NCBI GenBank assembly: GCA_002762865.1
Contig: PCYE01000025.1
Coordinates: 1 to 42,897, forward strand
Direction: 5' to 3'
DNA length: 42,897 bases
From: Candidatus Woesearchaeota archaeon CG10_big_fil_rev_8_21_14_0_10_33_12
GTDB taxonomy: Archaea; Nanobdellota; Nanobdellia; Woesearchaeales; CG1-02-33-12
Shown here: positions 4,624-25,673 of the stretch, in pieces
Position numbering within the stretch: the first letter of the stretch is position 1
Layout: each line of letters starts with the position of its first letter
Program-made: the position numbers and the translations under genes
Notes under the pieces: model-generated
The model's database searches: none
Seen by the model: only the letters and a program-made list of their open reading frames with translations
Told to the model about the DNA's origin: nothing

Positions 4624-4905
4624 TTATTTTCTTTTAAGTGTTATCTCAATTGTTGAAACCCTGACCTGCCTTCCTTCCTTATTTGTAAATTCCTCAGAGT
4701 CAATCTTTATGTCACCAACATCTGCCTGCCCGTTCAAAAACCTTTTTGATGAAACCTCTGCAACATCAACAGCTCTTGAAATAAACTTTCCACGAGCCTT
4801 GATAAATATATCACTTGCATTCTTTGTTGTAAACTGCATCACAACAGCAGTCACATAGTTCATAAAAGGCTTCTCTCCAATAAAAATTGTGTTGTCTTCT
4901 GCCAT
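4624..4905 (-). CDS. albA: Alba nucleic-acid-binding chromatin protein
   Basis: IFIGEKPFMNYVTAVVMQFTTKNASDIFIKARGKFISRAVDVAEV matches the Alba consensus. Confidence 0.93.
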   Translation of the reverse strand: MAEDNTIFIGEKPFMNYVTAVVMQFTTKNASDIFIKARGKFISRAVDVAEVSSKRFLNGQADVGDIKIDSEEFTNKEGRQVRVSTIEITLKRK

Positions 4906-4938
4906 TTTAGTCCCTCCTTACCATTGAAACGATGAACA

Positions 4939-5133
4939 TCAAATGTCTTTTTTAGTATTCATCAGCCTTGTTACATAGCCTGCAATAATATTCCTTATTT
5001 TGGTTGAGCTAATGTTTGCAAACTTACTGACTAATTTCTTGTTCTCTTCAAAATTTTTCTTAAACTCCTGCCTATGTCTGTCTACCAATTTATTAGTTGC
5101 TCCTTTTATCAGTTTAGTCTTTATTCTTCCCAT
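4939..5133 (-). CDS. rps17e: ribosomal protein eS17
   Basis: MGRIKTKLIKGATNKLVDRHRQEFKKNFEENKKLVSKFANISSTKIRNIIAGYVTRL is characteristic S17e. Confidence 0.95.
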   Translation of the reverse strand: MGRIKTKLIKGATNKLVDRHRQEFKKNFEENKKLVSKFANISSTKIRNIIAGYVTRLMNTKKDI

Positions 5134-5203
5134 ATAATCACTTGTCTGCTGAGAAATACAACTTCCTTTATAAACTTAACTAATAGGGCTTTAAAAACAA
5201 AAC

Positions 5204-5998
5204 TTATAAGCTCCTTTTAAAGAGTTCAGAAATGATTTTTGCGCCTGTTTTGCTTGTTAAACTGTTCATATCCAGTTTAGGATTCACTTCAACTAAATCA
5301 AAAGCCTTTAAATTTTTTAAATTAGTTAATCTTTGCAGAAAAAAGATTAATTCCCTGGAACTCAATCCAGCAGGTTCTAAATAGCCTGTTCCAGGCGCAA
5401 AAGCAGGATCCAATACATCAATATCAATAGAAATATATAGTGAGCCAAACTGAAGTGCAGCAGACATCACAGCCTCTGAAACCTCTTTTATCCCTTCGCT
5501 AGCTATCTCTTTCATTGAAAAAAATTTGATTTTATTCTGTTTTAGATAATCATACTCATTCTTATGCCAGCTTCTCAATCCAACCAGGATAACATTTCCC
5601 CTTTTTACATGATTCTCCTCAATAAGAACTCTTAGGAAGTCCTCATGCGTAGGCGGGCTGAAATTGTTTTCGCAGTCAGGATGTGCATCAAAAACAACAA
5701 TGCCTGGATTTTCAAACTGCTTTGAAAAAGCCTTAAAGCATGCATAGGTTATTGAATGATCACCACCTAAAATAATAGGCATTTCATCATTCTGCATTAT
5801 ATGGTTATAGATATTCTCATTTGTCTCTGTTATATTTGAGTTATTTACCTTAACAGACTCCACACTGAATTCCGGCTTAACACCCTGCTCATTTAAGAAA
5901 ATCTGTTTAAGCTCATCAATAATCTTGTCAGGGGCAAGCTCTGTGCCAAGAGTTTTTCCAAGCCCTCCTGCTGAAAAAGGGATTTTAATCAGTTTCAT
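5204..5998 (-). CDS. arginase/agmatinase family ureohydrolase
   Basis: GGDHSITY, FDAHPDC, SIDIDVLDPAFAPGTG motifs. Confidence 0.9.
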   Translation of the reverse strand: MKLIKIPFSAGGLGKTLGTELAPDKIIDELKQIFLNEQGVKPEFSVESVKVNNSNITETNENIYNHIMQNDEMPIILGGDHSITYACFKAFSKQFENPGIVVFDAHPDCENNFSPPTHEDFLRVLIEENHVKRGNVILVGLRSWHKNEYDYLKQNKIKFFSMKEIASEGIKEVSEAVMSAALQFGSLYISIDIDVLDPAFAPGTGYLEPAGLSSRELIFFLQRLTNLKNLKAFDLVEVNPKLDMNSLTSKTGAKIISELFKRSL

Positions 5999-11402: not shown

Positions 11403-12179
11403 ATGGCAAAAGAAAAATTAGTATTAAAAGCATCAAAAATAAAGAAGAAATGGTACCAGATTCTGGCTCCAAAGGAGTTTAATGAAAATTTAATAGGTGA
11501 AACACCTTCTTTAGATCCAAGGCTTCTTATTGGCAAGGTTATAAGAATTAACCTAATGAACCTTACAAAGGATATTAAAAAACAGAACATTAACATAAGA
11601 TTTAAGATAATAGGATTAATTGAAAACAAGGCACAGACAGAGGTTATAGGATATCAAATCATACCTGCATTCATTAAAAGAATAATAAAGAAAGACAGGA
11701 GTAATCTCCATGATTCTTTTGTCTGTGAAACCTCTGATGGAAAGCGTGTAAGGTTAAAAACCTTGATAATAACAATACGCAAAACAAAAGGGGCTGTTAC
11801 TACTTCTTTAACCAATTCAATGAAAGTTAATTTAAAAGATTATGTTAAAAAAATCAGCTATAAAGAACTTATCAACGAATTGATATCTTACAAATTACAA
11901 ATTAATCTGAAGAATTCCTTAAAAAGCATATACCCTTTAAGGAACTGCGAAATAAAAGAAATGATTTTAGAGGCTGAAAAAAAGATTATTGGTAAAAAAG
12001 AAGAGAAAGAAAAAGTTGAAGTTAAAGAAGAAAGCAGTGAAGCAGAAGAAAAGAAACCAGATAAACCTCAAGTTGAAGAGAAGAAAGAGGAAACAAAACC
12101 AAAAAAAGAGAAAGTAAAAAAAGAAGTTAATCAAGATAATTCTAATAAGGAAGAAAACTCTAAAAACACACAAGAATAA
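11403..12179 (+). CDS. rps3ae: ribosomal protein eS1 (S3Ae) with long charged C-terminal tail
   Basis: KKWYQILAPKEFNENLIGETPSLDPRLLIGKVIRINLMNL...RLKTLIITIRKTKGAVTTSLTNSMK...YPLRNCEIKEMILEAE. Confidence 0.93.
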   Translation: MAKEKLVLKASKIKKKWYQILAPKEFNENLIGETPSLDPRLLIGKVIRINLMNLTKDIKKQNINIRFKIIGLIENKAQTEVIGYQIIPAFIKRIIKKDRSNLHDSFVCETSDGKRVRLKTLIITIRKTKGAVTTSLTNSMKVNLKDYVKKISYKELINELISYKLQINLKNSLKSIYPLRNCEIKEMILEAEKKIIGKKEEKEKVEVKEESSEAEEKKPDKPQVEEKKEETKPKKEKVKKEVNQDNSNKEENSKNTQE

Positions 12180-12180
12180 G

Positions 12181-12372
12181 GTGATGAATATGGCAAAACC
12201 AGTTATTGATTATAAAAAATGCACAAATTGCGGCAATTGCATTGATATCTGCCCTATGCAGGTCTTTGCAAAAGAAGATGATAAAGTTGTTGTTAAAAAG
12301 CCAGAAGAATGCATTGGATGCAGGGCCTGTGAAGTCCAGTGCCCAAAAGGGGCCATTAAAGTGGTTGATTAA
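12181..12372 (+). CDS. 4Fe-4S ferredoxin-type protein
   Basis: CTNCGNCIDICP ... CIGCRACEVQCP double cluster motif. Confidence 0.93.
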   Translation: MMNMAKPVIDYKKCTNCGNCIDICPMQVFAKEDDKVVVKKPEECIGCRACEVQCPKGAIKVVD

Positions 12373-12455: not shown

Positions 12456-13616
12456 ATGAATATACAATATAATTTAAAACCAAAAGATAAGCGAAGAGAT
12501 AAACCATTTATTCCAGAAAAAATACTCCCATTTGGTAAATTGCGAACAGACCATATGTTTCTTATGAATTATATTGGGGGAGAGTGGAAAAATCCAAGGA
12601 TTACTCCTTATGGTAACCTTAACATTATGCCAGGTGCAATTGTATTACATTATGGTCAGGCAATATTTGAAGGTGCAAAAGCATTTGAACATGAAGATGG
12701 AAATATTTACACTTTCAGGCTTGATAAAAATGCAAATCGCTTAAATGAATCTGCGAAAATTATGTGTATGCCCAAGATTCCAATAGAAGACCAGATAGAA
12801 GCAGTTCATGCATTAATTGATGTAGAAAGATTATGGTTTCCGAAAAAACAGAAAGGTGCATCAATTTACATAAGGCCATTTATGGTTGGAATAGATGACT
12901 GCTTAGGTGTCCATCCAAGCAAGGAATATACTTTCTGTGTAATGCTCTCACCAAGCGGCCCTTACTATAAAGATGGATTTAATAAGCCAATAAATCTTTT
13001 AATCACAAAGAAGTACCACCGGGCAGCCCCAGGGGGAACAGGAGCTGCAAAAGCAGCTGGAAACTATGGTGCCTCATTAATGGCAGGAGAAATTGCAACT
13101 AAATTTGGAACAAAGCAGGTATTATACCTTAACACAAAAAATACTCTTCTGGAAGAAGCAGGAGCAATGAATCATTATCATATTGAGAATGGAACAATTT
13201 TGATACCAAAATTCAATGATACAATACTGCGCTCCATAACTTCACAATCAGTTATGGAATTAAGCAATCAATTAGGAGTTAGTGTTAAGCAGAAAGAATT
13301 AAGGCTTGAGGACTTTCTGATGGGGATTATAGATGGAAGAATTAGTGAAGCTGGTGGATTAGGAACTGCAGCAGTGATATCCCCTGTTGGAACATATAGA
13401 ATATTGAAAGATGAGTTAATTGGTGATTGTACATTAGATTCAATATTAAACAACAAATTATCTAAAGATGAGTTAGCAAAGCTTTGCACGGATATTAAGG
13501 TTGGAGATGGAGAAATTGGTAATATTTCACTGAAAGTTTATGAGATGTATACTAACATTCAGACTGGGAATCTTCCTGCTCCAGACGGCTGGCTACGTAA
13601 GGTTGAACATCAATAA
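12456..13616 (+). CDS. ilvE: branched-chain amino acid aminotransferase (fold IV)
   Basis: FGKLRTDHMFLMNY...GAIVLHYGQAIFEGAKAF...YIRPFMVG...GGTGAAKAAGNYGASL...EEAGAMNHYHIENG. Confidence 0.92.
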   Translation: MNIQYNLKPKDKRRDKPFIPEKILPFGKLRTDHMFLMNYIGGEWKNPRITPYGNLNIMPGAIVLHYGQAIFEGAKAFEHEDGNIYTFRLDKNANRLNESAKIMCMPKIPIEDQIEAVHALIDVERLWFPKKQKGASIYIRPFMVGIDDCLGVHPSKEYTFCVMLSPSGPYYKDGFNKPINLLITKKYHRAAPGGTGAAKAAGNYGASLMAGEIATKFGTKQVLYLNTKNTLLEEAGAMNHYHIENGTILIPKFNDTILRSITSQSVMELSNQLGVSVKQKELRLEDFLMGIIDGRISEAGGLGTAAVISPVGTYRILKDELIGDCTLDSILNNKLSKDELAKLCTDIKVGDGEIGNISLKVYEMYTNIQTGNLPAPDGWLRKVEHQ

Positions 13617-13648: not shown

Positions 13649-13664
13649 TAGCCCCGCACGGATT
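13649..13664. repeat. tRNA-Gln 3'-end remnant (putative distal att site)
   Basis: TAGCCCCGCACGGATT, identical to 24922-24937, not followed by the rest of a tRNA. Confidence 0.8.
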
Positions 13665-13748
13665 AGGTACCTTCTATGGCCACTTTTTGGGACTACTTGT
13701 TCTCGATGTATCGTTTCACTCTTTAGATAGAACTTAACTCGCCTAGTA

Positions 13749-14252
13749 TTATGAGCAAGATGAATCAAAAAGGCCTATATTTTTAGCATATTCCTTCTCA
13801 AATCCTTTTTTCTTAGCATATTCATATGATAATATCTTACAAGTATTTTCTTCTGGACCAAAATCAATCATGTCGGGTAAAATTTTTTTAAAATTAGTTT
13901 TATCCCATTCTCTAAGAGAAAATTTTCGATGTATAAATTCGTGAATGAATTCACACATGATATACTCTTTAGGTATTCCTTTTTTTATTGCAATCATATT
14001 TATTTTAGACAAATAGTTAGCATATCTTTGTGGCTTTGTTAAATTGAGTATAGAAGGGGGTAAATTATCAAGACTTAAACCAGCTTTTCGTATTTCTATG
14101 TTTATTTCTGAGATTTCATATTCAAAATATTCAAATGAATCAGAATCTACTTTTAGAATTTCTTTTGCATTACTATCTAAGATTATTGTTTTTCTATTTT
14201 TTTTAAGATATTCTAATATTATTTGTTCAACTTTTTCATGATTTTTATTCAT
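13749..14252 (-). CDS. HEXXH-containing putative zinc metallopeptidase
   Basis: CEFIHEFIHRKF contains HEFIH; acidic residues downstream (GPEENTCKILSYEYA). Function inferred from the motif only. Confidence 0.6.
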   Translation of the reverse strand: MNKNHEKVEQIILEYLKKNRKTIILDSNAKEILKVDSDSFEYFEYEISEINIEIRKAGLSLDNLPPSILNLTKPQRYANYLSKINMIAIKKGIPKEYIMCEFIHEFIHRKFSLREWDKTNFKKILPDMIDFGPEENTCKILSYEYAKKKGFEKEYAKNIGLFDSSCS

Positions 14253-14282
14253 TGACTTACCACCATGGTATAACTCATACTG

Positions 14283-14741
14283 CTATCGTTTCATATGAAT
14301 TTTTATCTTTTTTTCCATTTCTGTTTTTATGTTCATGCCCCTATGATATTGTTCTTCAAAATCAGTCCTTTTGTACTCCCAATACTTTAGAAGATTATGG
14401 GTAAACACAATCCTTTTTATATTGTATTCAAGGAGTTTATCACTCAAGTCATTACTGATAAATCCCTTTTGTAAACAATCCATAATCAGAGTGTGGTGTC
14501 TATAGCTCTTTTCCCATATCTTGTCAACGTTTGGAGTGCAAGTTAAATGATTCTTACCATATTCTATTGTGTAAATGCATTTGAGGTATATTTCGATGAT
14601 GCTGTTTAAGATTGAAAACGCTTCCAACAAAAAACCATAGTTGTATGCTTTCATGATATGGTCATCCACAGTGGAAGCTGATAATAATTCAATATCCTTT
14701 TTAATACAACTGTTGGAATTAATTGAGTTTTCAGATACCAT
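14283..14741 (-). CDS. HEPN-like helical protein
   Basis: All-helical 152 aa with KRIVFTHNLLKY (R-x4-H, HEPN-type signature). Confidence 0.5.
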   Translation of the reverse strand: MVSENSINSNSCIKKDIELLSASTVDDHIMKAYNYGFLLEAFSILNSIIEIYLKCIYTIEYGKNHLTCTPNVDKIWEKSYRHHTLIMDCLQKGFISNDLSDKLLEYNIKRIVFTHNLLKYWEYKRTDFEEQYHRGMNIKTEMEKKIKIHMKR

Positions 14742-14862
14742 AATTCATTACCTAACTTAAACTATGTTTTATTAAAGTATATATATAAATTTACTCTTTT
14801 TATCGCCAAAAAAATCATATGCCTCAATCGGTAATAGATAGTTTTTGTTAGTTTTTAGGGGA

Positions 14863-15807
14863 TTATAAAGAATTATCAAGCATATTATTAAAAAAATCCT
14901 TATTTGAAAATATTGCTTTTTGAAATATCTCAACTAATACATAATTTCTTGCCATTATTGCAGTAAGAGCTTTTAATAAAATCACCGTTCTTGTTTCGTC
15001 AACTTGGTCTAAAGTGTATTTGTCTCTTTCTTCATAAGTACAGTGGCATATATCATTTCTTAGTTTATTATATGGAGAATCCCATAACAAAGGGAATTCT
15101 TTTTGAAAGTAATCATAAATTTCCTTATTATTTTTAATATCTTTAAAAGGGGTACCAGTTAATAGTCTATAGTATTCTTCCAATATCTTAAGGTAAATTT
15201 CCATAGCATCAGAATATAACCTTAGAGAGATATATTCTTTTAATTTAATATCCAATTTTTCTTTTTTTTCATTAATCTCTCGATATTTTTCAATAGCGTT
15301 AAGAACTTGATTGATTCTTTGAGGGTCTATACCTATTTTTTCATTAAGTTTTTTATTTACTTCAGGGGTAATTTTTTTTGTAAGTTGTTTAAATGTTTCT
15401 TCTCTAAAACTAGATGAATCATTAAAATCAGGAATGTTATTTTTATCTAATCCAAATGCTTTCCATATATATCCAGGTTCTATCTTTTCTCCTTTATCTT
15501 GCTTTTCTTTTATTTTCAATAAATCTTCTTTATTAATGCCTAAAGGTTCAGCTATTGTAAAAATATCCAGTTTTTTCCTAACAATATCCTTAAATATTGG
15601 AAGATATGTTTTATAAATATGTGTTTTCTCCAATGGCTCCCCAGTTATTTTATCTTTTCCTGCATCAATGAGTTTCAAGTCCATTCCAATAAAAAGACCA
15701 AACAAAGATAAATTAAGCCCTTTTGGATTTTCTTTTAATATATCATTAAATTTCTCAACATTTTTTAATTGATCTTCTTCTGATAAATATTTTTTCATCT
15801 CATCCAT
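14863..15807 (-). CDS. hypothetical protein with C-terminal HEPN-like module
   Basis: SPYNKLRNDICHCTYEER contains RNxxxH. ATG at 15807 preferred over TTG at 15828 because of the TATA position. Confidence 0.6.
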   Translation of the reverse strand: MDEMKKYLSEEDQLKNVEKFNDILKENPKGLNLSLFGLFIGMDLKLIDAGKDKITGEPLEKTHIYKTYLPIFKDIVRKKLDIFTIAEPLGINKEDLLKIKEKQDKGEKIEPGYIWKAFGLDKNNIPDFNDSSSFREETFKQLTKKITPEVNKKLNEKIGIDPQRINQVLNAIEKYREINEKKEKLDIKLKEYISLRLYSDAMEIYLKILEEYYRLLTGTPFKDIKNNKEIYDYFQKEFPLLWDSPYNKLRNDICHCTYEERDKYTLDQVDETRTVILLKALTAIMARNYVLVEIFQKAIFSNKDFFNNMLDNSL

Positions 15808-15852
15808 AATCAAACTAATGAATTTCAAACTTTAAATATATTACCAATATTA

Positions 15853-15904
15853 TTCAGAAACTCCATAAAAATGCCTTATTTTAAGACAAAAAGCTTATTA
15901 AAAT
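15853..15904. repeat. island intergenic repeat, copy 1
   Basis: TTCAGAAACTCCATAAAAATGCCTTATTTTAAGACAAAAAGCTTATTAAAAT, aligns ungapped to copies 2 and 3. Confidence 0.8.
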
Positions 15905-15917
15905 TAAATCTTTTAAA

Positions 15918-16286
15918 TTATCTTTTTCTTTCAAAAGCTTCTCTCAAAGTAGGAATACTTTCTTGAAATTTTCTTTCTTCAGTAGCTGATGTTGTCCTTA
16001 CGTGTATATCACTTGGAAAACGTGTTTCACCACTATAAACTTTTCTATGTTCTGGGTATTTTTTTCTATAATAACCTATCATTATAAAACCAATTATCAT
16101 AAATACAATACCTAAAACCATGCTAGGATAATAAAGAAAGGAATTTGGTGCTTTTATTCCATAATTTTTTGCTGATAAAATAAATGAATAACCTAAAAAA
16201 AATGTTCCAAGTAAGATAGATATTATAAATGATGCAATAAGCTTTAATCTATTAAAAAGTTCTCTCAAATAGTTTGAAAAACTCAT
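15918..16286 (-). CDS. small membrane protein
   Basis: Two hydrophobic segments (LIASFIISILLGTFFLGYSFIL; MVLGIVFMIIGFIMIGYY) plus a charged cytosolic-type tail. Confidence 0.6.
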   Translation of the reverse strand: MSFSNYLRELFNRLKLIASFIISILLGTFFLGYSFILSAKNYGIKAPNSFLYYPSMVLGIVFMIIGFIMIGYYRKKYPEHRKVYSGETRFPSDIHVRTTSATEERKFQESIPTLREAFERKR

Positions 16287-16341
16287 TATATTAAATTAAT
16301 TGGTTTATAAGTATAAAAATCTTACTATATTTTATTTTTTG

Positions 16342-16704
16342 TTATAATTGTATTTCTATAATTGTTTTTTCAAAACTTAGATTGAATAAAAGGATAAGTG
16401 CTATAATAAGGATAATTGTCATAACAACAAAAAAAATAAATTTAAATCTTTGAGATTTATTTTTAAGAAGTTCCATTAAAAGTGCTGACCATAAACTTAA
16501 AACTATTCCACAAAGTATGGTTAAAAGAAGTGATAACCAAAATGGCAGGGTAATTAATTGTGTAATCCTAGCATTAGCATTTACACTTTCACCTGTTGTT
16601 ATTTGGTCATGAACATTTCTTTCTGTAAGGTTTTGTCCTAAAACTAAGAATGGGAATAGTAAAAGAAAGCATATCAACAGTACGAATAAGAATTTTTTTC
16701 TCAT
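16342..16704 (-). CDS. membrane protein with N-terminal signal-like helix
   Basis: MRKKFLFVLLICFLLLFPFLVLG followed by two further hydrophobic helices. Confidence 0.55.
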   Translation of the reverse strand: MRKKFLFVLLICFLLLFPFLVLGQNLTERNVHDQITTGESVNANARITQLITLPFWLSLLLTILCGIVLSLWSALLMELLKNKSQRFKFIFFVVMTIILIIALILLFNLSFEKTIIEIQL

Positions 16705-16781
16705 TTTAACCCTTAAATCACACTTTATTGGTATCCTTAAAATTTTAAAATATAAAAACCTTTGTATATAAATCAAAATCT

Positions 16782-16833
16782 TTCAGAAATGCCGTAAAAA
16801 TGCCTTAAATAAAGCCACAAAGATTTAATAAAC
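16782..16833. repeat. island intergenic repeat, copy 2
   Basis: TTCAGAAATGCCGTAAAAATGCCTTAAATAAAGCCACAAAGATTTAATAAAC; contains AATGCCGTAAA AATGCCTTAAA in tandem. Confidence 0.85.
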
Positions 16834-16898
16834 ACAAATTGCTTCTCCAATAGTAAATATACAAAATTTATTTAAATTAAGAGATATTATAATGCTTA

Positions 16899-17756
16899 AT
16901 GGCAAAAAAATTAACCAAAAAGAATAAAAAAGAAATGAATGATTCAACAGAGGGTTTAATTACAAAAGGAATTTCTTTAGTAACATTAGGCAAACATGAA
17001 GAAGCTATTAAATGTTTTGATAAAGCTTTAGAGATTAATCCTAATCACGCACTTCCTTGGTATAATAAAGGATTTTCTTTAACAAAATTAGGTAAATATA
17101 AAGAAGCTATTGAATGTTATGATAAAGCTTTAAAGATTAATCCTAATTTTGAATTTGCTTGGAATAATAAAGGAGTTTCTTTAGCAAGATTATGCAAATA
17201 TGATGAAGCTATTCAATGTTATGATAAAGCTTTAGACATTAACCCTAATCTTCATTCTGCTTGGGATAGTAGAGGAGGTTCTTTGTTTGGGTTAGGTAAG
17301 TATAAAGAATCAATAGAATGCTATGATAAAGCTTTAGAAATCAATTCTGATGATGAAATTACTTGGGATAATAAAGGAGGTTCTTTAGCAAGATTATGCA
17401 AATATGATGAAGCTATTCAATGTTATGATAAAGCTTTAGACATTAACCCTAATCTTCATTCTGCTTGGGATAATAAAGGTCGTTCTTTGTTTGGGTTAGG
17501 CAAATATAAAGAATCAATTAAGTGTTTTGATAAAGCTTTAAAAATCAATTCTAATAATGAACATGCTTGGCGATTTAGAGGAGGTTCTTTGTTTGGATTA
17601 GGTAAGTATAAAGAATCAATAGAATGCTATGATAAAGCTTTAAAGATTAATCCTAATGATAAACTCGCTTGGTATAATAAAGGAATTTCTTTAGAAAAAT
17701 TAGGCAAAAATGATGAAGCTAAACGATGTTTTGATAAAGCACTTAAGCTTGGATAA
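16899..17756 (+). CDS. tetratricopeptide repeat protein
   Basis: Tandem 34-aa repeats (AWxNKGxSLxxLGKYxEAIxCYDKALxINPN). Confidence 0.9.
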   Translation: MAKKLTKKNKKEMNDSTEGLITKGISLVTLGKHEEAIKCFDKALEINPNHALPWYNKGFSLTKLGKYKEAIECYDKALKINPNFEFAWNNKGVSLARLCKYDEAIQCYDKALDINPNLHSAWDSRGGSLFGLGKYKESIECYDKALEINSDDEITWDNKGGSLARLCKYDEAIQCYDKALDINPNLHSAWDNKGRSLFGLGKYKESIKCFDKALKINSNNEHAWRFRGGSLFGLGKYKESIECYDKALKINPNDKLAWYNKGISLEKLGKNDEAKRCFDKALKLG

Positions 17757-17786
17757 ATAAGTATTTCATCACTCTATTTAATTTAA

Positions 17787-19103
17787 CTACTCTTCAATCT
17801 TTTTTATTAAATCATCCATATCAACTGGCCGAAATTTCGTCAATTCAGTAGATATGTTTATTCTCTTATTCTTTTTGTCTATGAATGGATATTTTTCTAA
17901 TTTATTGTTGTGGTGATGTCCGCAAATTGCCCAACCATCCCAATCTGAAGGTATATTGGCAGGGTCATGGACAAGGTAAAATTTTTTGCCTTTGTATTCA
18001 ATTATTAGGTTATCAAACACATTCTTTGTTCTGGATATTTTATCGTGTTGATTTCTTTCTTCAGAAGGTTCATAAGAAAAACCTCTAATGAAAAATATGT
18101 CACCATTTAGTTTTTTCATCCAGTAATCTGCTGGTCTGCTTGGGATTTGAATATCTTTATTCTTACCAAAACTCATATCGCCAAGGAAATAAACCCTATC
18201 CCTTCTGCTGACTATATTATTCCAATTATCAATAAGAGTTTTATTCATATCTTCTGTATTAAGAAAAGGTCTTTTGCAATATTTGATTATATTTGTGTGG
18301 TCTAGATGTAAATCTGAGGTGATATATGTTTTAGGTTTCGCAAAAATATCTTTTATTTTAGAAATAATGTTCTTCCTTGGAACTCTTAAACCAGAACCCA
18401 TAAAATCTTCAGGGTTAAACCTGCCTTCAAAATACGCCTTTAATAAGTCAGAAGTTTTTGAGTAAATATCTTTGCTTTTAGCTAATTTCCTATCTAACAA
18501 TCTTCTTAAGAGGAAATCATATTCTTTGAGGATTTTTTGTCCTTTAAGCAAAGTCAACCTAACTACAACATGGTCAAAATTAAGTTTTGGTTTGTTTTTA
18601 ATATAATCTTTAATTCTCTTAAACTTATCTTCTTCTAGTTTCATAGCAATTGTTGCATGAAATGAGAAATCTTTTTCATAATCAAATGGTTTAAGTTCAC
18701 AATATTTTCCCAAAGTTTTAGATAAATTCCATCTAAAGTTATCTAACTCCTTACTTGGCATTATATCCACAAAAACTACATTGCTATGTTCAAATGTGTT
18801 AAATCCTTCAACTTTGAATTTCATCAAAGGATTGTCAACACATAATTGTCTAAAATCTCGAATTAATCTTTCTTCATCATTAGTGTAAAATGGGCCTGCT
18901 AAACTGATATGCGGAACTGCTCTTCTTGTTGTTAATCGGAATTTCTTTTTAACATCATGGATTAACTCTTTGATTTCGTGTTTTGCTTTTCCATGAAACC
19001 TAAATTCTATTAAATAATTTAACTCTCCATTTTCAGAATGTTTTTTCCTAACATGTCTTCTTCTATGATGAATGTGTTTCTTTCTTGTTCTAACTCTAGC
19101 CAT
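17787..19103 (-). CDS. 2H phosphoesterase (2'-5' RNA ligase/LigT-like) fused to calcineurin-type metallophosphoesterase
   Basis: N-terminal HISLAGPF and FHATIAMKL (two HxS/T motifs); C-terminal TSDLHLDH, NWNNIVSRRDRVYFLGDMSFG, ICGHHHN. ATG at 19103 preferred (TATA TTTTATATAAAA reverse strand ~19121-19137). Confidence 0.8.
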   Translation of the reverse strand: MARVRTRKKHIHHRRRHVRKKHSENGELNYLIEFRFHGKAKHEIKELIHDVKKKFRLTTRRAVPHISLAGPFYTNDEERLIRDFRQLCVDNPLMKFKVEGFNTFEHSNVVFVDIMPSKELDNFRWNLSKTLGKYCELKPFDYEKDFSFHATIAMKLEEDKFKRIKDYIKNKPKLNFDHVVVRLTLLKGQKILKEYDFLLRRLLDRKLAKSKDIYSKTSDLLKAYFEGRFNPEDFMGSGLRVPRKNIISKIKDIFAKPKTYITSDLHLDHTNIIKYCKRPFLNTEDMNKTLIDNWNNIVSRRDRVYFLGDMSFGKNKDIQIPSRPADYWMKKLNGDIFFIRGFSYEPSEERNQHDKISRTKNVFDNLIIEYKGKKFYLVHDPANIPSDWDGWAICGHHHNNKLEKYPFIDKKNKRINISTELTKFRPVDMDDLIKKIEE

Positions 19104-19158
19104 TTCATTAGACAATATAAGGTTTTATATAAAAATATTACTATCAATCCTTAAATCC

Positions 19159-19210
19159 TTCAGAAATGCCGTAAGAACGCCTTATTTTAAGTCACAAAGT
19201 TTATTAAAAG
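19159..19210. repeat. island intergenic repeat, copy 3
   Basis: TTCAGAAATGCCGTAAGAACGCCTTATTTTAAGTCACAAAGTTTATTAAAAG. Confidence 0.85.
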
Positions 19211-19382
19211 AAAAATAAGTAGGATACACTATAAACCTTGTTAGCAACCAGCTTATAGGAGAACATTAAATTACAGAAATCACATTATACATCTCTCTCA
19301 TGTAAGTCTTTTACAGCCCAATCAAACAAAAACCATTTTTTATTATAAATATAGGTTAAGAAAAAGACCTACAAAACAAACA

Positions 19383-19390
19383 TTTATATA
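19383..19390 (+). promoter_or_regulatory. TATA box (TTTATATA) of the biosynthetic-like operon
   Basis: Last base is 27 nt before the ATG at 19417; same 27-nt spacing as TTTATATA 24244-24251 to ATG 24278. Confidence 0.65.
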
Positions 19391-19416
19391 TTATTAACTC
19401 TAGTGTAGTAATTAAT

Positions 19417-19509
19417 ATGAAAAATCAAAGTATTTGGAATTTCAAATACATGTGGGGTCAAATGGTTGGTTTGAGTTATAGACTAAGTGATGGAGATAAG
19501 GTAAGTTAA
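19417..19509 (+). CDS. 30-aa peptide ORF, first cistron of the operon (candidate precursor or leader peptide)
   Basis: MKNQSIWNFKYMWGQMVGLSYRLSDGDKVS*; positioned for near-leaderless translation; stop is 1 nt before the next ATG. Confidence 0.55.
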   Translation: MKNQSIWNFKYMWGQMVGLSYRLSDGDKVS

Positions 19510-19510
19510 A

Positions 19511-20890
19511 ATGATAAATGAGTTAGGATACTTAGGTTTAGGAACAAGCAATAAAAGAAATGAAACCAGATGGGACCATCTTCAACTTAGAAAGTTAATG
19601 AATGAGAAATGGGAATCAATAAGAGAGTTCTATAAGAAATCACCAAAAGAGATTAATGACTTTCAATTTAAAAGAATAAAAGAATTAGTTAAACATGCCT
19701 ATGAAACAGTCGATTTGTACAAAGAAAAATATACTAAAGAGGGCTTTGAGCCAGAAGATTTTAAGACATGGAAAGATTTTCAGAAATTGCCAATTTTAAC
19801 AAAAGAGGAATTAATAGAAGGTTTTCCTGAAAAAACAATTAGTAAAGATTATGGAACAGAATTCACAACAAGAAGCTCTGGATCAAGTGGTAAATTTGTT
19901 ACTCTTGCTGTATCTCCTAAAGCAGTTTATATTGACACAATTCAGGGAGCAAGACAATTTTACTTTCAAAGTGGAGAAGAATATGATTCTACAGACTTAG
20001 CATTGTTTATTTATACTAGCCCTTGGTGGGTTTCTTCAATTGATAGCGAGTATCATAGTGAGTTCTTACCAACAACTACTCATGTTGAAGGTGCTATAAA
20101 AACAATCAAAGACTTAAGACCAAAAGTATTATCAACTTATCCTACCTACTTAAAAGAATTAATGAGTGCTGGAGCTGATCTTAAAGGTTCAGGAGTCAAC
20201 CTTGTTGTTATTCATTCAGAGCAGTCAACTGAAAAAGAAAGAAAAGAACTTTCAGATTTTTTCAAAGTAAAGGTATTAGATGAATTTAGTAGCGAAGAGC
20301 TTACACGGATTGCTTTGGAATGCCCATATAGAAAATACCATATTGAGGAGGATTCTTGTTATATTGAAGTTGTTGATCCACAAACAAAAAAAGTATTAGA
20401 TAATAACAGAAGAGGACTTATTATAGGTACAAATTTATTAAATGAGGCTACACCAATAATAAGGTATTCTCAAGGGGATATAGGAACAATTAAACAAGTA
20501 AACAACTGTATATGTGGAAGTAATTTTAGGCTGATTGAATCTCCGCAAGGGAGGTATATGGATTCTATTACTGTTGGAAATAAAGTTATTCCTGCAAGTT
20601 GTTTTATGGATTTAGCATACAATTGGTATTTAGAATTAGATGTGCCAATACATGGGTTAAAATACCAAATTGTTCAAAATAGGAAAGGAAACATTGATAC
20701 ATTTTTAGTTCAAGGAAAATTTGGATTGAGTCCTTCTCAAAAAAGGAGAATACAAGAAAGCTTTTACCAATTAGTTCCAAAAAGCATACAAGTTAAGGTT
20801 CATATAGTTAATGAAACACCTGTAAAAACTGGAATAAAATATAGGCCAATAATTTCATTAATAAATAAAAATTGTGAATCAGTAAAATGA
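19511..20890 (+). CDS. PaaK/CapK-like adenylate-forming enzyme
   Basis: FQFKRIKELVKHAYETVDLYKEKY...FQKLPILTKEEL...TTRSSGSSGKFVTL...LDEFSSEELTRIALEC...PIIRYSQGDIG: PaaK-family layout. Confidence 0.8.
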   Translation: MINELGYLGLGTSNKRNETRWDHLQLRKLMNEKWESIREFYKKSPKEINDFQFKRIKELVKHAYETVDLYKEKYTKEGFEPEDFKTWKDFQKLPILTKEELIEGFPEKTISKDYGTEFTTRSSGSSGKFVTLAVSPKAVYIDTIQGARQFYFQSGEEYDSTDLALFIYTSPWWVSSIDSEYHSEFLPTTTHVEGAIKTIKDLRPKVLSTYPTYLKELMSAGADLKGSGVNLVVIHSEQSTEKERKELSDFFKVKVLDEFSSEELTRIALECPYRKYHIEEDSCYIEVVDPQTKKVLDNNRRGLIIGTNLLNEATPIIRYSQGDIGTIKQVNNCICGSNFRLIESPQGRYMDSITVGNKVIPASCFMDLAYNWYLELDVPIHGLKYQIVQNRKGNIDTFLVQGKFGLSPSQKRRIQESFYQLVPKSIQVKVHIVNETPVKTGIKYRPIISLINKNCESVK

Positions 20891-22071
20891 TAAATGAATC
20901 TAAAGAAGCATTGGGACTTATTGAAAAAAAACTTAAAGAATTGAGAGATGAAGTACCTCCTCGGAACTTTAATCATAAAAAACCTGCTGAAGTTGAAATA
21001 AACCAATTTTGGTTTGAAAATAAAACTATAGATAGAATAATGGTTGTTTTAAGAGCAACAGGATGTAGTCATTATAAGTTGAAGCAAGGCTGTTCAATGT
21101 GTGCTCATTATAATGCAACTACTGAAACTCCTATCAGTGCAGAAGATTATATTACACAATGGAAAAACGTAGTTAATGGAAGTGAAATTGAAAAGAAAAC
21201 TGATTTTGATATTAATAATTATCCGGTGCTTTGCTTATATAATTTAGGAAGTTTCCTTAATCCCGAAGAAGTTCCAATTAAGGCAATGGAAGAAATATTT
21301 GCTTCAATTAATTCATTGCCAGGTATCAAAAAAACAATTATAGAATCTAGAGCAGAATATGTAAACCCAGAGGTACTTGAAAAAATAAGAAAGGTAAATA
21401 ATGGACTTATTGAGGTAGGAATTGGTCTTGAATCAATAAATGATGATGTAAGAGAATTATGCCATCATAAAAATATGCCTGATTTAGCTGTATTTTTAAA
21501 AGCAATTAAAACATTGCATCAATATGATTTTAAAGCTTTGACTTATGTTAACCAAAAACCATCTTTTTTAACTGAAAAAGAATCTATAGATGATGCTATA
21601 GAAACAACAATATTTGCATTTGACAATGGAACTGATGCTGTGTCTATTGAACCAACATCATTACAAGCAAATTCACTTACAGATTACCTATATAGGATAG
21701 GAATGTATAGGGTTCCTTGGTTATGGAGTGTTATTGAAGTTGTTAGAGGTATAACTGAAAAGGTAGGAAGTAATTTAGACTTAAGGATAGGGGGATATTT
21801 TGAGGAAGAAATTTTAAGTGGAAGTCAAGGAATTGCATCTGGAAGCGAAAGAAATGAATTATTTCCTTATACAACTTCTGGAAACTGTGCTAAGTGTAAT
21901 AATAGGATAATTGATGCAATAAAGAGATATAACAAAACTTATGATTCAAACATATTGTTTGATGAAAAACCATGTGAATCTTGCTTTTCTATTTGGAAAT
22001 CTACACTTACAGTTAATGATTCAAGAAGTATACCAAAAAGGATAATAGATTCCTTAGGAGGCATTAAATGA
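20887..22071 (+). CDS. radical SAM protein related to archaeosine synthase RaSEA/Elp3-type enzymes
   Basis: MVVLRATGCSHYKLKQGCSMCAHYN (Cx8Cx2C), GIGLESINDDVRE, C-terminal CAKC...CESC. Confidence 0.8.
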   Translation: MINESKEALGLIEKKLKELRDEVPPRNFNHKKPAEVEINQFWFENKTIDRIMVVLRATGCSHYKLKQGCSMCAHYNATTETPISAEDYITQWKNVVNGSEIEKKTDFDINNYPVLCLYNLGSFLNPEEVPIKAMEEIFASINSLPGIKKTIIESRAEYVNPEVLEKIRKVNNGLIEVGIGLESINDDVRELCHHKNMPDLAVFLKAIKTLHQYDFKALTYVNQKPSFLTEKESIDDAIETTIFAFDNGTDAVSIEPTSLQANSLTDYLYRIGMYRVPWLWSVIEVVRGITEKVGSNLDLRIGGYFEEEILSGSQGIASGSERNELFPYTTSGNCAKCNNRIIDAIKRYNKTYDSNILFDEKPCESCFSIWKSTLTVNDSRSIPKRIIDSLGGIK

Positions 22072-23156
22072 AGATTTCATATTTGTCTTGTGATATTTGT
22101 GGTTTCAAAGGAAAAAACCCTACAGAACACCAACACAAAGAATTAGAAATAGGAGGGGTTCCAATGAATATCTGGACTCTTGTTTATTCATTACCTAAAT
22201 CTTTGAAATTGAATGATTACTGTAAGGGAATTGCAAGATATAAAGAATATATTCCATTTGAGATAAGGGAAAATGTGGTAGATGAAGAATGTAACACCCC
22301 CATGATTAAACTAAAAGAAAATATTTTTTTAAAAGATGAGAGTCAAAATCCAACTCACAGTTTTAAAGATAGAGGCATAGTCATGTTAGTTTCTGATGCC
22401 TTAAAAGCAGGCAAGAAAAAAATAGCAATTCCATCAACAGGTAATGCAGCAATATCTCTTGGGTATTATGCAAATAAAGCAGGATTAGAATCAATTGTAT
22501 TTATTCCAGAAGACACTGCTTTGTCAAAGAAAGAGCAAATAAAAAAGCGTTCTACAATAATTTATGATAAAGATTTAGTCAAAAGTTATGAACATTTTTT
22601 TGATTTTTGTAGAACAGATGATTCTGTTTATAATGGGTTTCCAGTGACTAATCTTCCTTATGCGCAAGGTATAAAGACTATATCTTATGAAATATTTCTT
22701 CAGATGGGTGATGTACCAGAGTGGATTATTATTCCTGTAGGAAGCGGCGGCAATGTTGTGGCTCAATATAATGGATTTAAAGATTTAATAAATATGGGAT
22801 TAACTGATAAGATACCTAGGTTTGCAACTGTCCAAATCAAAGGCGCTGACCCAATAACATTAGGTTATCAAACAAAACAATATGATGATATAATCCTTAT
22901 TGAAGATTCAATAAAATCAAAAGCCGAAGCAATTGCATCGGATACTTGTTTTAATTATTTTAAGATTATGAGCATACTTAATGAAACGAGGGGGATTGCA
23001 ATTTCAGTTACTGATAAAGATATTGAAGAGAATCAACATGCACGTTGGCTTGAATTCTCTTCACAATCCATTTTTCCAGCCCTTGATATGCTTATAAACA
23101 ATACTAACAAGAAAGATACAATTGTTCTAGTAGGAACAGCAATAGATAGAGGGTGA
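22068..23156 (+). CDS. threonine-synthase-like PLP-dependent enzyme (fold type II)
   Basis: N-terminal CDIC; LKDESQNPTHSFKDRGIVMLV; PSTGNAAISLGYYANKAG; IPVGSGGNVVAQYNGF. Confidence 0.85.
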   Translation: MKISYLSCDICGFKGKNPTEHQHKELEIGGVPMNIWTLVYSLPKSLKLNDYCKGIARYKEYIPFEIRENVVDEECNTPMIKLKENIFLKDESQNPTHSFKDRGIVMLVSDALKAGKKKIAIPSTGNAAISLGYYANKAGLESIVFIPEDTALSKKEQIKKRSTIIYDKDLVKSYEHFFDFCRTDDSVYNGFPVTNLPYAQGIKTISYEIFLQMGDVPEWIIIPVGSGGNVVAQYNGFKDLINMGLTDKIPRFATVQIKGADPITLGYQTKQYDDIILIEDSIKSKAEAIASDTCFNYFKIMSILNETRGIAISVTDKDIEENQHARWLEFSSQSIFPALDMLINNTNKKDTIVLVGTAIDRG

Positions 23157-23160
23157 AAAC

Positions 23161-24186
23161 ATGATAAATAATAGAAAAAAACTTAGGATACATGTTCTTT
23201 ATGGAGGCAACTCGGCTGAAAGACCTGGTTCCATTCTTTCAGGTAAAACAATAGAATCTACATTACGCCGTGCAGGATATGAAAATGTGACAAGATATGA
23301 TATTACTTCAGACTCGGTTTTCAGTTTAGTTTCGAATAAACCTGATTTAGCATTTCTTACGTTCCATGGTGGAATGGGAGAGGATGGAACATTGCAAGCT
23401 CTTTTGGAATTGTTAAGGGTTCCATACACTTCCTCAGGGGTTTCTGCTAGTGCAATTTCTGCAGACAAAGTGTTGTTTAATCGTTTTGTTACTTCTTTAG
23501 GATATAATGCTCCAGACCAGTTTCTTATATCAAGCATAAACAAATTAGAAGAAAAAGACTGGGAATATCCCTTAATAATCAAACCGGTTAAACAAGGATG
23601 TTCTTATGGTGTTTTCCTAGTACAAAATCTTGATGAATTGAAAGAAAGGGCAAATTTTTCATTACAATTTGATGGTAGAATTGTAGTTGAGAAGTATATT
23701 GAGGGGAGGGAGTTTTCCGTTGGAATATTTGAATATCCAAAAACAAAACATCCAATAATTTTACCAATATCAGAAACAAAGTTGTCAAAAGGAATTTTGG
23801 ATTTTGAAACAAAATATCCTGGAGGAGAACATCTATATAAGACAATCATTCCAGCTGAATTAAGTGTTGAAGAAAGAGAACAGCTAGAAGATATGTGTAA
23901 AAATGTGTTTACTAAATTAGATTGTAGAGGTTATGTGAGGATGGATTTAAGATTAGATGTTAAAGGTCAATTTTATTTCTTAGAAAATAACACAATCCCT
24001 GGGATACTGAGTCCAACTGAAAGTGATATCCCAAAAATGTTAAATGTGATGGGAATTTCTTTAGAAAAATTTGTGGATATGATTGTTGAATCAACGCTTA
24101 TACACCATTACCAAAAGAAAAATGTGAATGTTCCAAGTGAAAAAGAAATGGTAAAGTACCTTGGACTAAAACTAGCAGAAGACTAA
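23161..24186 (+). CDS. D-alanine--D-alanine ligase-like ATP-grasp enzyme
   Basis: VLYGGNSAERPGSILSG, FHGGMGEDGTLQALLELLRVPYTSSGVSASAISADK, IIKPVKQGCSYGV, VVEKYIEGREFSVGIF, RMDLRLDVKGQFYFLENNTIPGI. Confidence 0.88.
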   Translation: MINNRKKLRIHVLYGGNSAERPGSILSGKTIESTLRRAGYENVTRYDITSDSVFSLVSNKPDLAFLTFHGGMGEDGTLQALLELLRVPYTSSGVSASAISADKVLFNRFVTSLGYNAPDQFLISSINKLEEKDWEYPLIIKPVKQGCSYGVFLVQNLDELKERANFSLQFDGRIVVEKYIEGREFSVGIFEYPKTKHPIILPISETKLSKGILDFETKYPGGEHLYKTIIPAELSVEEREQLEDMCKNVFTKLDCRGYVRMDLRLDVKGQFYFLENNTIPGILSPTESDIPKMLNVMGISLEKFVDMIVESTLIHHYQKKNVNVPSEKEMVKYLGLKLAED

Positions 24187-24277
24187 ATAAGATAAATTAT
24201 TAAAATAAAATGGATTGTGTATGACTAACTAAAATAAGTAAGATTTATATAATAGAAAGATTAAAGAAATCTGAAAC

Positions 24278-24916
24278 ATGATAATAAAAAATATACCTTT
24301 TATAAATGATAGAAAAGAAAAACAACCTTCTTGTCAGGGACCTCCTACTGTAATGATGGTTTTAAAATTTTTTAGCATTGATATACCTTATTCCAAATTA
24401 TATGAAAAAATTAAATACAAAAAAGGAAAATGGTTTTTTGAAACATATATTGTTGAATTATTGTTTTCTTTTGGAATTTCTTGTAAATACTATAGTGATA
24501 TGCAAATACGAAAAATTGAAAATAGTAAGAAGGAATTTAAAAAAGTAAGCAATCTTGAATTTAATGAGAAAAATAAAAAAAAGATAGATATTCCTCGCTA
24601 TGATTCTGGTATTGTATTTGTATTAAATAATAAACTTTTCGAAAAAAGAAAGATTGATATCAACTTCCTAATTGAACAACTTAAAAAAAGAAAACTTGTT
24701 ATAGCTACAATCAATAGAAATAAATTAACAGGAAATAAGGGTTATAAAGGACATTTTATTCTTATTAAAGGTTTTGATAATAAAAATATTATATGTAATG
24801 ATTGCTATTTAGGTGAAAATATAAAAATACCAATAAATAAATTTAAAGATTCCTTTTATTACCCATCTAATCAGAAAAAGACACATCACATTGTTGTAAT
24901 TGATATTTTAAGTTAA
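24278..24916 (+). CDS. peptidase C39-like cysteine peptidase-fold protein
   Basis: NIPFINDRKEKQPSCQGPPTVMMVLKFF (Cys), GHFILIKGFDNKNIICNDCYLG (His/Asn-Asp). Own TATA box TTTATATA 27 nt upstream. Confidence 0.6.
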   Translation: MIIKNIPFINDRKEKQPSCQGPPTVMMVLKFFSIDIPYSKLYEKIKYKKGKWFFETYIVELLFSFGISCKYYSDMQIRKIENSKKEFKKVSNLEFNEKNKKKIDIPRYDSGIVFVLNNKLFEKRKIDINFLIEQLKKRKLVIATINRNKLTGNKGYKGHFILIKGFDNKNIICNDCYLGENIKIPINKFKDSFYYPSNQKKTHHIVVIDILS

Positions 24917-24921
24917 ATAAT

Positions 24922-24994
24922 TAGCCCCGCACGGATTCGAACCGTGGTCACAAGGTCCAGAGCCTTGTATGATTGGCCACTACACTACGGGGCT
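24922..24994 (-). tRNA. tRNA-Gln (CTG)
   Basis: Reverse complement AGCCCCGTAGTGTAGTGGCCAATCATACAAGGCTCTGGACCTTGTGACCACGGTTCGAATCCGTGCGGGGCT(A); anticodon stem CAAGG CTCTGGA CCTTG. Confidence 0.95.
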
Positions 24995-25070: not shown

Positions 25071-25673
25071 ATGAAAAAAATAGGGGCTGGCGCAGAGGCC
25101 TTAATCTACCTTGATAAGAAAGAAGTTGTAAAAGAAAGGATAAAAAAGAGCTACCGTTTAAAGCAGATAGATGAAAAGCTAAGGAAGTTCAGGACAAGAA
25201 GAGAAGCAAAAGTCCTTGAAAAGCTTCATTCAATTGGTTTCCCAATACCAAAACTGATTCTTTCAGATGACAAAAAGATGCTCATAAAAATGGAATTCCT
25301 TAAAGGAAAAAAGCTTAGGGATATTTTAAACAAAAAAAACTGCGAAAAGCTTTGCAGAGAGATTGGGGAGGAGGTCGCAACATTACACAAAAAGGGCATA
25401 ATTCATGGAGACTTAACAACGTCAAACATGATTCTTAAAGATAAAATTTATTTTATTGACTTTGGACTAAGCTTTTTCTCAGATAAAATAGAGGATAAGG
25501 CTGTTGATATTCACCTTTTAAGGCAGGCCCTTGAATCAAAACATCATGAAATCTTTAAAAAATCATTTAAAGCTATGTTAGCAGGGTATAAAATAAAAAA
25601 CCCTGATTACAATACCATAATTAAAAGACTTGAAAAAGTAGAAGCAAGGGGAAGATACAAAGGAAAATCTTAA
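25071..25673 (+). CDS. bud32: Bud32/KEOPS-type protein kinase
   Basis: GAGAEALIYLDKKEVVKERIKKSYRLKQIDEKLRKFRTRREAKVLEKL...GIIHGDLTTSNMILKDKIYFIDFGLSF. Confidence 0.93.
   Translation: MKKIGAGAEALIYLDKKEVVKERIKKSYRLKQIDEKLRKFRTRREAKVLEKLHSIGFPIPKLILSDDKKMLIKMEFLKGKKLRDILNKKNCEKLCREIGEEVATLHKKGIIHGDLTTSNMILKDKIYFIDFGLSFFSDKIEDKAVDIHLLRQALESKHHEIFKKSFKAMLAGYKIKNPDYNTIIKRLEKVEARGRYKGKS

Follow-up and report, generated by a model that had tools for sequence, protein, structure and literature searches.

The window analysed here is a stretch of 42,897 nucleotides on contig C45 of the draft genome of Candidatus Woesearchaeota archaeon CG10_big_fil_rev_8_21_14_0_10_33_12 (G000; 1.05 Mb, 53 contigs), and our subject is an 11.3-kb interval of it that ends at a tRNA-Gln(CTG) gene. 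In agreement with the original prediction, ARAGORN found this gene intact on the minus strand (24922-24994) and no tRNA at 13649. The 16 bp at its 3' end (24922-24937), TAGCCCCGCACGGATT, recur in the same orientation on the plus strand at 13649-13664; we call this repeat the core and its copy at 13649, a putative attachment (att) site, the distal core. The direct repeat had been predicted at just these positions, and it did not occur once in 100 shuffles of the window. Nor is it common across the genome, which would have spoken against the prediction: the two copies are the only exact ones in the draft genome, and no third copy with up to two mismatches was found in the window. Among the 28 tRNA genes found in the rebuilt genome, whose 3' ends were all tested for repeats, tRNA-Gln is alone in having its end repeated on its own contig away from other tRNAs; the repeats of the other ends turned out to be other tRNAs or isolated 14-mers on other contigs and were rejected as comparable sites. 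The layout is that of a tRNA-integrated island, bounded on one side by an intact tRNA and on the other by a direct repeat of the 3'-terminal bases of this tRNA. The comparison of composition that had been proposed gave a lower GC content inside the interval (28.7%, against 33.2% for the genome), which is atypical; five interval genes are within the lowest 4% of the genome's open reading frames by GC, and ilvE and Bud32 are unremarkable.

The locus was compared with the relatives of G000, labelled G001, G002 and so on, of which eight form the family set and 51 other genomes of the order serve as an outgroup; all are draft metagenome-assembled genomes. To the left, the conserved flank consists of the gene for ribosomal protein eS1 (11403-12179, plus strand), present in seven of the eight family relatives, and of a small ferredoxin gene (12191-12372, plus strand), which marks the end of the conserved block and also lies downstream of eS1 in G001, G005, G006 and G008. 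To the right stands Bud32 (25071-25673, plus strand), which adjoins tRNA-Gln in all five relatives that have a close Bud32 homologue. The original prediction had counted ilvE (12456-13616, plus strand), which matches branched-chain aminotransferase models and lies between the ferredoxin and the distal core, as part of a conserved flank; this held for eS1, ferredoxin and Bud32, which are kept in relatives, and failed for ilvE. In a search of 40 relatives, the gene was found in none of the eight family members and matches elsewhere were distant. Because it is absent from the whole family set, we regard ilvE as accessory and part of the variable region, probably left over from an earlier acquisition. 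To its left, neither a further core nor a further arm (the conserved segment described below) was found. In G018 and G016, which belong to other families of the order, only 40 and about 580 bp, respectively, separate eS1 from Bud32, and no tRNA was detected in between. The tRNA and the variable interval thus belong to the locus in the form that it takes in this family. The eS1 genes of G000 (window 11403-12000) and G004 (L060 225-820) have 95% DNA identity and their Bud32 genes 81%, figures which suggest that the left flank may have been exchanged between the two species. The tRNA-Gln of G002 (L054 7092-7219) is enlarged in its D-arm region by about 27 nucleotides, probably an intron, that contain the inverted repeat aaaccaaataattggttt; a default run of ARAGORN misses this tRNA.

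Scanning of the cargo proteins against Pfam and PADLOC, together with reading of the open reading frames, divides the content of the interval into two blocks. The one next to the distal core begins with three minus-strand genes: one of 167 amino acids with an HExxH motif (13749-14252), metalloprotease-like by eye and without a Pfam match; one of 152 amino acids with an RX4H motif (14283-14741), HEPN-like by eye and without a Pfam or PADLOC match; and one of 321 amino acids with an RNDICH motif (14863-15828), also HEPN-like by eye, without a significant Pfam match or a solved relative by sequence. Then come two small putative membrane proteins of 122 and 144 amino acids (15918-16776, minus strand), a tetratricopeptide-repeat (TPR) protein with 102-bp DNA repeats (16899-17756, plus strand), and a protein (17787-19115, minus strand) with a 2H phosphoesterase (2'-5' RNA ligase superfamily) domain (PF13563, 4e-17) and a C-terminal part that is metallophosphoesterase-like by eye. 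The other block, all on the plus strand, comprises a PaaK-like adenylate-forming enzyme (19511-20890), a radical SAM protein near TIGR01210 (RaSEA) but slightly below its cut-off (20887-22071), a threonine-synthase-like pyridoxal-phosphate enzyme (22068-23156), a D-Ala-D-Ala-ligase-like ATP-grasp enzyme (23161-24186), all assigned by family models, and a C39-like peptidase with a GC content of 22% (24278-24916). The run at 19511-24916 resembles a small cluster for a peptide or amino-acid-derived natural product, which is unusual for a DPANN archaeon. The neighbouring proteins at 14283-15828 have, by eye, RX4H motifs typical of HEPN RNases and lie near the 2H phosphoesterase; PADLOC returned generic TPR matches alone for the window cargo and none for the HEPN-like pair. 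Two of the cargo proteins have no solved relative by sequence, and a search for the source of the radical SAM protein among 287 genomes of the order gave distant relatives only. A conserved motif, CAGAAATGCCGTAAAAATGCCTTA, and its variants stand upstream of three minus-strand cargo genes (15855-15878, 16784-16807 and 19161-19184) and occur also in G000:C35, G001:C93 and G005:C72, possibly as a shared regulatory element of accessory genes; its neighbour AAGCCACAAAG occurs behind the arm too, in G001 and G004.

When the sequences after each core were aligned, the distal cores were found to be followed by a conserved segment of about 30-40 bp, the arm, which is close to ANGTACCTTCTATGGYNACTTTTTGGGACTAGTT in sequence. 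In the window it lies at 13665-13714 on the plus strand and scores 57.8 bits with a model that was built including this copy. The tRNA copies of the core instead continue with CGAACC, which is the tRNA itself, and have no arm. A pattern search found the core end plus arm in G000, G001, G002, G004, G005 and G007 and in none of the 51 genomes of the order outside the family; each of the five relatives, out of eight in the family set, has a copy downstream of eS1. The same relatives were recovered when the GTDB species collection was scanned (JAFCEA01, JAHJQG01, JAFCBX01, JAHIFA01 and JAGYOA01). The JAFCBX01 record, titled 'Methanosarcinales archaeon', matches G004 of this genus, which is labelled Woesearchaeota/Nanoarchaeota, and the record is probably a mislabelled metagenome-assembled genome. 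Several further candidates were discarded: arm-pattern matches in SAR86, Rivularia, Cellulophaga and others have no adjacent core and look like chance; in IMG/VR there was no exact match to the arm or to core plus A that would indicate a virus-borne att site, and two loose matches were one unrelated sequence; and a decayed arm in G008 scored about 6 bits, no better than background. To the left of the core the sequence is mostly AT-rich, with short stretches common to different elements, and it might be a weaker second arm.

On the tRNA-sense strand, TAGTCCC and GGGGCTA would allow a 7-bp pairing between arm and core, with G-U pairs or compensating changes in some copies. Core plus arm folds slightly better than shuffles (z of −0.2 to −1.8) and several copies fold differently. 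As the folds are weak and non-uniform, we take the pairing bases to be an inverted repeat within a recombination site that acts as double-stranded DNA, and not an attC site or an RNA. An isolated core plus arm with an altered core, TAATCCCGCACGGATT, was also found on contig C32 of G000 (L076 4432-4505, minus strand), 2 kb from a tRNA-Gly(TCC) gene at L076 2446-2517. Insertion at tRNA-Gly by the same recombination was considered and rejected, the core being mismatched to the 3' end of tRNA-Gly and this tRNA being intact. The tRNA-Gly locus is itself variable: the tRNA directly adjoins a pilus-like cluster in G002, the 4646-5208 segment in G001 and G004, and a three-gene module without the arm in G005.

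Behind the same arm, the cargo differs among the four relatives in which it can be read. G002 carries a GNAT acetyltransferase, a class-III aminotransferase, a GFO/IDH oxidoreductase, a glycosyltransferase, a TPR protein, two radical SAM proteins and a kinase; G001 carries glycosyltransferases and radical SAM proteins; G004 a GH130 enzyme, recognized by its sequence match to a Pfam-named protein of G001; and G005 a gene that is methyltransferase-like by eye. The contig of G007 ends too soon behind the arm for a reading. Different cargo behind the same arm is predicted by a recombination site that each element carries with it, and not by common ancestry of the interval.

Tandem stacking with the same att site was found in G001, G004 and G005, each of which carries more than one core plus arm, and the window itself holds one cassette. 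In G001 there are two copies, and the contig with the second overlaps the tRNA-Gln contig by 95 identical bases, which gives the joined order core, arm, GH130 enzyme, glycosyltransferase, 202-amino-acid protein and tRNA-Gln. In G004, the GH130 cassette comes after the first core plus arm on the eS1 side, and at its glycosyltransferase end stand a further core plus arm with a damaged core and then a methyltransferase-like gene; in G005, a core plus arm and an aldo-keto-reductase-like gene come after the same glycosyltransferase end. The GH130/glycosyltransferase cassette, therefore, adjoins the tRNA in G001 and lies beyond another cassette in G004 and G005, a shift of position that fits entry at the tRNA and outward displacement. 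This one cassette is more alike between species than core genes are: its genes have 90-95% DNA identity among the three genomes, compared with 89% for Bud32 (G001/G004), 87% for gyrB (G001/G005) and 76-83% for eS1, which suggests, at the level of sequence similarity, that it may have moved after the species separated.

In G005 and G001 the ferredoxin gene directly precedes the core plus arm, so that the boundary at the core is precise. The nearest approach to an empty site is in G008, where the ferredoxin and tRNA-Gln contigs overlap by 25 bp and about 1.3 kb lies between the two genes. Several contigs of G004 and G008 end at or a few bases from the 3' end of tRNA-Gln (L055 14055, L058 12287 and L065 1), as expected if the assembled populations differ at the site.

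No integrase gene had been recognized inside the interval in the original prediction, and this was confirmed by the Pfam scan and by a PF00589 search. No integrase or recognizable fragment was found in the intervals of the window and of G002, which are complete on one contig with att sites at both ends and no integration genes, and none in the readable cassettes of G001, G004 and G005. For a split SSV-type integrase, the genes beside either repeat gave no Pfam integrase match, PF16795 not having been searched genome-wide. Elsewhere in G000, tyrosine recombinases (PF00589) are encoded on contigs C19, C38, C43 and C46, and none on the window contig C45. The C46 protein passes the archaeal XerA model, has orthologues in six of six genus members (87-93% identity) and relatives in 51 of the 60 genomes searched; from its distribution, this protein is probably the housekeeping XerA. 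G000, G002 and G008 also have a second Xer (on C38 in G000), whose neighbours differ. In G002 (contig C26, L088 949-2280) it adjoins a SPASM-type radical SAM gene and a small protein of 80 amino acids with a Cys-rich end, which by eye resembles a precursor of ribosomally synthesized and post-translationally modified peptides. Against the integron-integrase model TIGR02249, whose cut-off is 265 bits, the XerA-type proteins reach only 221 and 195. As suppliers in trans, a serine recombinase was sought in G000-G005 and none was found, and neither XerA nor the second Xer matches the spread of the arm.

We suggest that the 3' end of tRNA-Gln(CTG) is probably an attachment site at which several-kb cassettes without an integrase accumulate by means of a recombinase supplied in trans. 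Each cassette would pass through a circular stage, with the 16-bp core and the 30-40-bp arm as its att site. A site-specific recombinase supplied in trans would join the circle to the tRNA, restore the tRNA 3' end and place another core plus arm at the end of the insert farthest from the tRNA, and the next cassette would enter at the tRNA and push the older ones outward. In the window, one 11.3-kb cassette would then adjoin the tRNA, and the accessory DNA beyond it, with ilvE, would be older. The enzyme would most likely be a tyrosine recombinase, either XerA or an enzyme of a co-resident element. Site-specific integration at the tRNA, as originally predicted, is supported by the conserved arm in five other genomes with differing readable cargo and by the tandem cassettes in congeners. 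With the extra core plus arm copies and stacked cassettes of the congeners, the locus is not a single decayed island but a site of repeated accretion. Of the two histories that had been offered, decay or mobilization in trans, the latter fits better and the former less well, since no cassette that was read has an integrase; within the limits of the drafts, insertion most likely used a recombinase in trans.

Several observations weigh against this interpretation. A clean empty site was sought among congeners and none was found. G007 has the arm and neither of the two Xer proteins, so that these candidates do not match the arm's spread; the isolated copy on C32, away from tRNA-Gln, is unexplained by the cassette model; and the excess similarity of the GH130 cassette over Bud32 and gyrB is only 4-7 points. 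The linkage in G004 and G005 also has assembly gaps, and an integrase could lie in an unread part of the array. This last point bears on the view that the interval is an ordinary tRNA-integrated island which lost its own integrase, the relatives having received similar autonomous insertions independently that decayed or whose integrase is unassembled. Integrase loss is common in islands, the single-cassette layout of the window and G002 is the classic one, and the arrays of G001, G004 and G005 are incompletely assembled in drafts. However, the complete intervals of the window and G002 contain neither an integrase nor a fragment of one, the readable cassettes of the other three also lack it, and repeated independent loss with retention of the same arm is less economical; we therefore consider an island with its own lost integrase unlikely, while giving it serious weight.

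It could also be proposed that the stretch between eS1-ferredoxin and tRNA-Gln is a hypervariable region swapped by homologous recombination through its flanks, with core plus arm as a fixed local sequence. The contrast between eS1 and Bud32 identities in G000 and G004 indicates that the flanks do recombine, and the two G001 copies are alike in their left side as well as in core and arm. Such exchange nevertheless leaves the repeat of the tRNA end, the extra core plus arm copies and the differing ordinal positions of the cassette unexplained, and we find it improbable. If core plus arm were a gene for a small structured or tRNA-like RNA, retained because that RNA has a function, and met the cassette boundaries by chance, the 7-bp pairing with its G-U or compensating changes would be accounted for; but the folding energies barely beat those of shuffles, the copies fold differently, some have damaged cores and their number varies between genomes, which makes this explanation very improbable. 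A chance repeat of a tRNA fragment, for which only the shortness of 16 bp speaks, is refuted by its absence from shuffles, its uniqueness in the genome and the recurrence of core and arm at this position in five relatives.

Several known systems can be compared with the proposed accretion at a tRNA. In Gram-positive bacteria, cis-mobilizable elements bounded by att sites and without integration genes are stacked in accretion arrays at one tRNA, and related elements with a matching integrase are known; the arrangement described here is alike, except that no helper was found. The closest precedent is offered by the ssrA islands of Dehalococcoides, which lie in tandem at one RNA gene, are bounded by 20-bp direct repeats with a conserved adjoining motif, and carry strain-specific metabolic cargo; 16 of them carry an integration module with serine recombinases, and some are without integration genes and were read as cis-mobilizable elements (PMC3146451). 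The tRNA-Gln cassettes share with them the tandem position at the 3' end of an RNA gene, the short repeats with an adjoining motif, the metabolic cargo and the freedom of some elements from integration genes, but they differ in that no cassette read has a recombinase, the host is an archaeon, the target is tRNA-Gln and not tmRNA, and no sequence relation was shown. Integrons have been reported in Archaea, mostly as integrase-less attC clusters (CALINs) (PMC9668308). They resemble the present locus in that cassettes with portable recombination sites of their own are stacked in one place, and in an enzyme that possibly acts in trans, whereas here the cassettes are of several kb with multiple genes, entry is at a tRNA, and no protein passes the integron-integrase cut-off. 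General folding revealed no common fold beyond the possible 7-bp stem, and an integron/attC assignment was rejected. Archaeal elements integrated at tRNAs carry classical (pNOB8-type) or split SSV-type integrases, and elements of the split kind have been reported to be excised by an exogenous integrase (PMC8371274). Like the cassettes described here, pNOB8- and SSV-type elements insert at the 3' part of a tRNA and leave it intact, but they carry an intact or split integrase gene, of which none was found here. The words DPANN and Nanoarchaeota are absent from that review of archaeal tyrosine recombinases (PMC8371274), and our literature search turned up no paper describing the tRNA-Gln core plus arm site, which we assign to the tandem cis-mobilizable elements as a new variant from Archaea.

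A bolder view is that of a domesticated, integron-like capture platform, in which tRNA-Gln would be the point of entry, core plus arm the portable site and a chromosomal XerA-type recombinase, encoded outside the cassettes, the capturing enzyme, so that archaea of about 1 Mb would be supplied with glycan and small-molecule genes; we think this rather doubtful. It is largely open by what routes DPANN archaea bring new genes into genomes of about 1 Mb. The locus allows this question to be addressed concretely and by test, as it offers one tRNA, a defined core with a conserved arm, glycan and small-molecule cassettes shared between species, and few candidate recombinases. Core plus arm can further be used as a handle for searching metagenomes for more cassettes and for the helper element.

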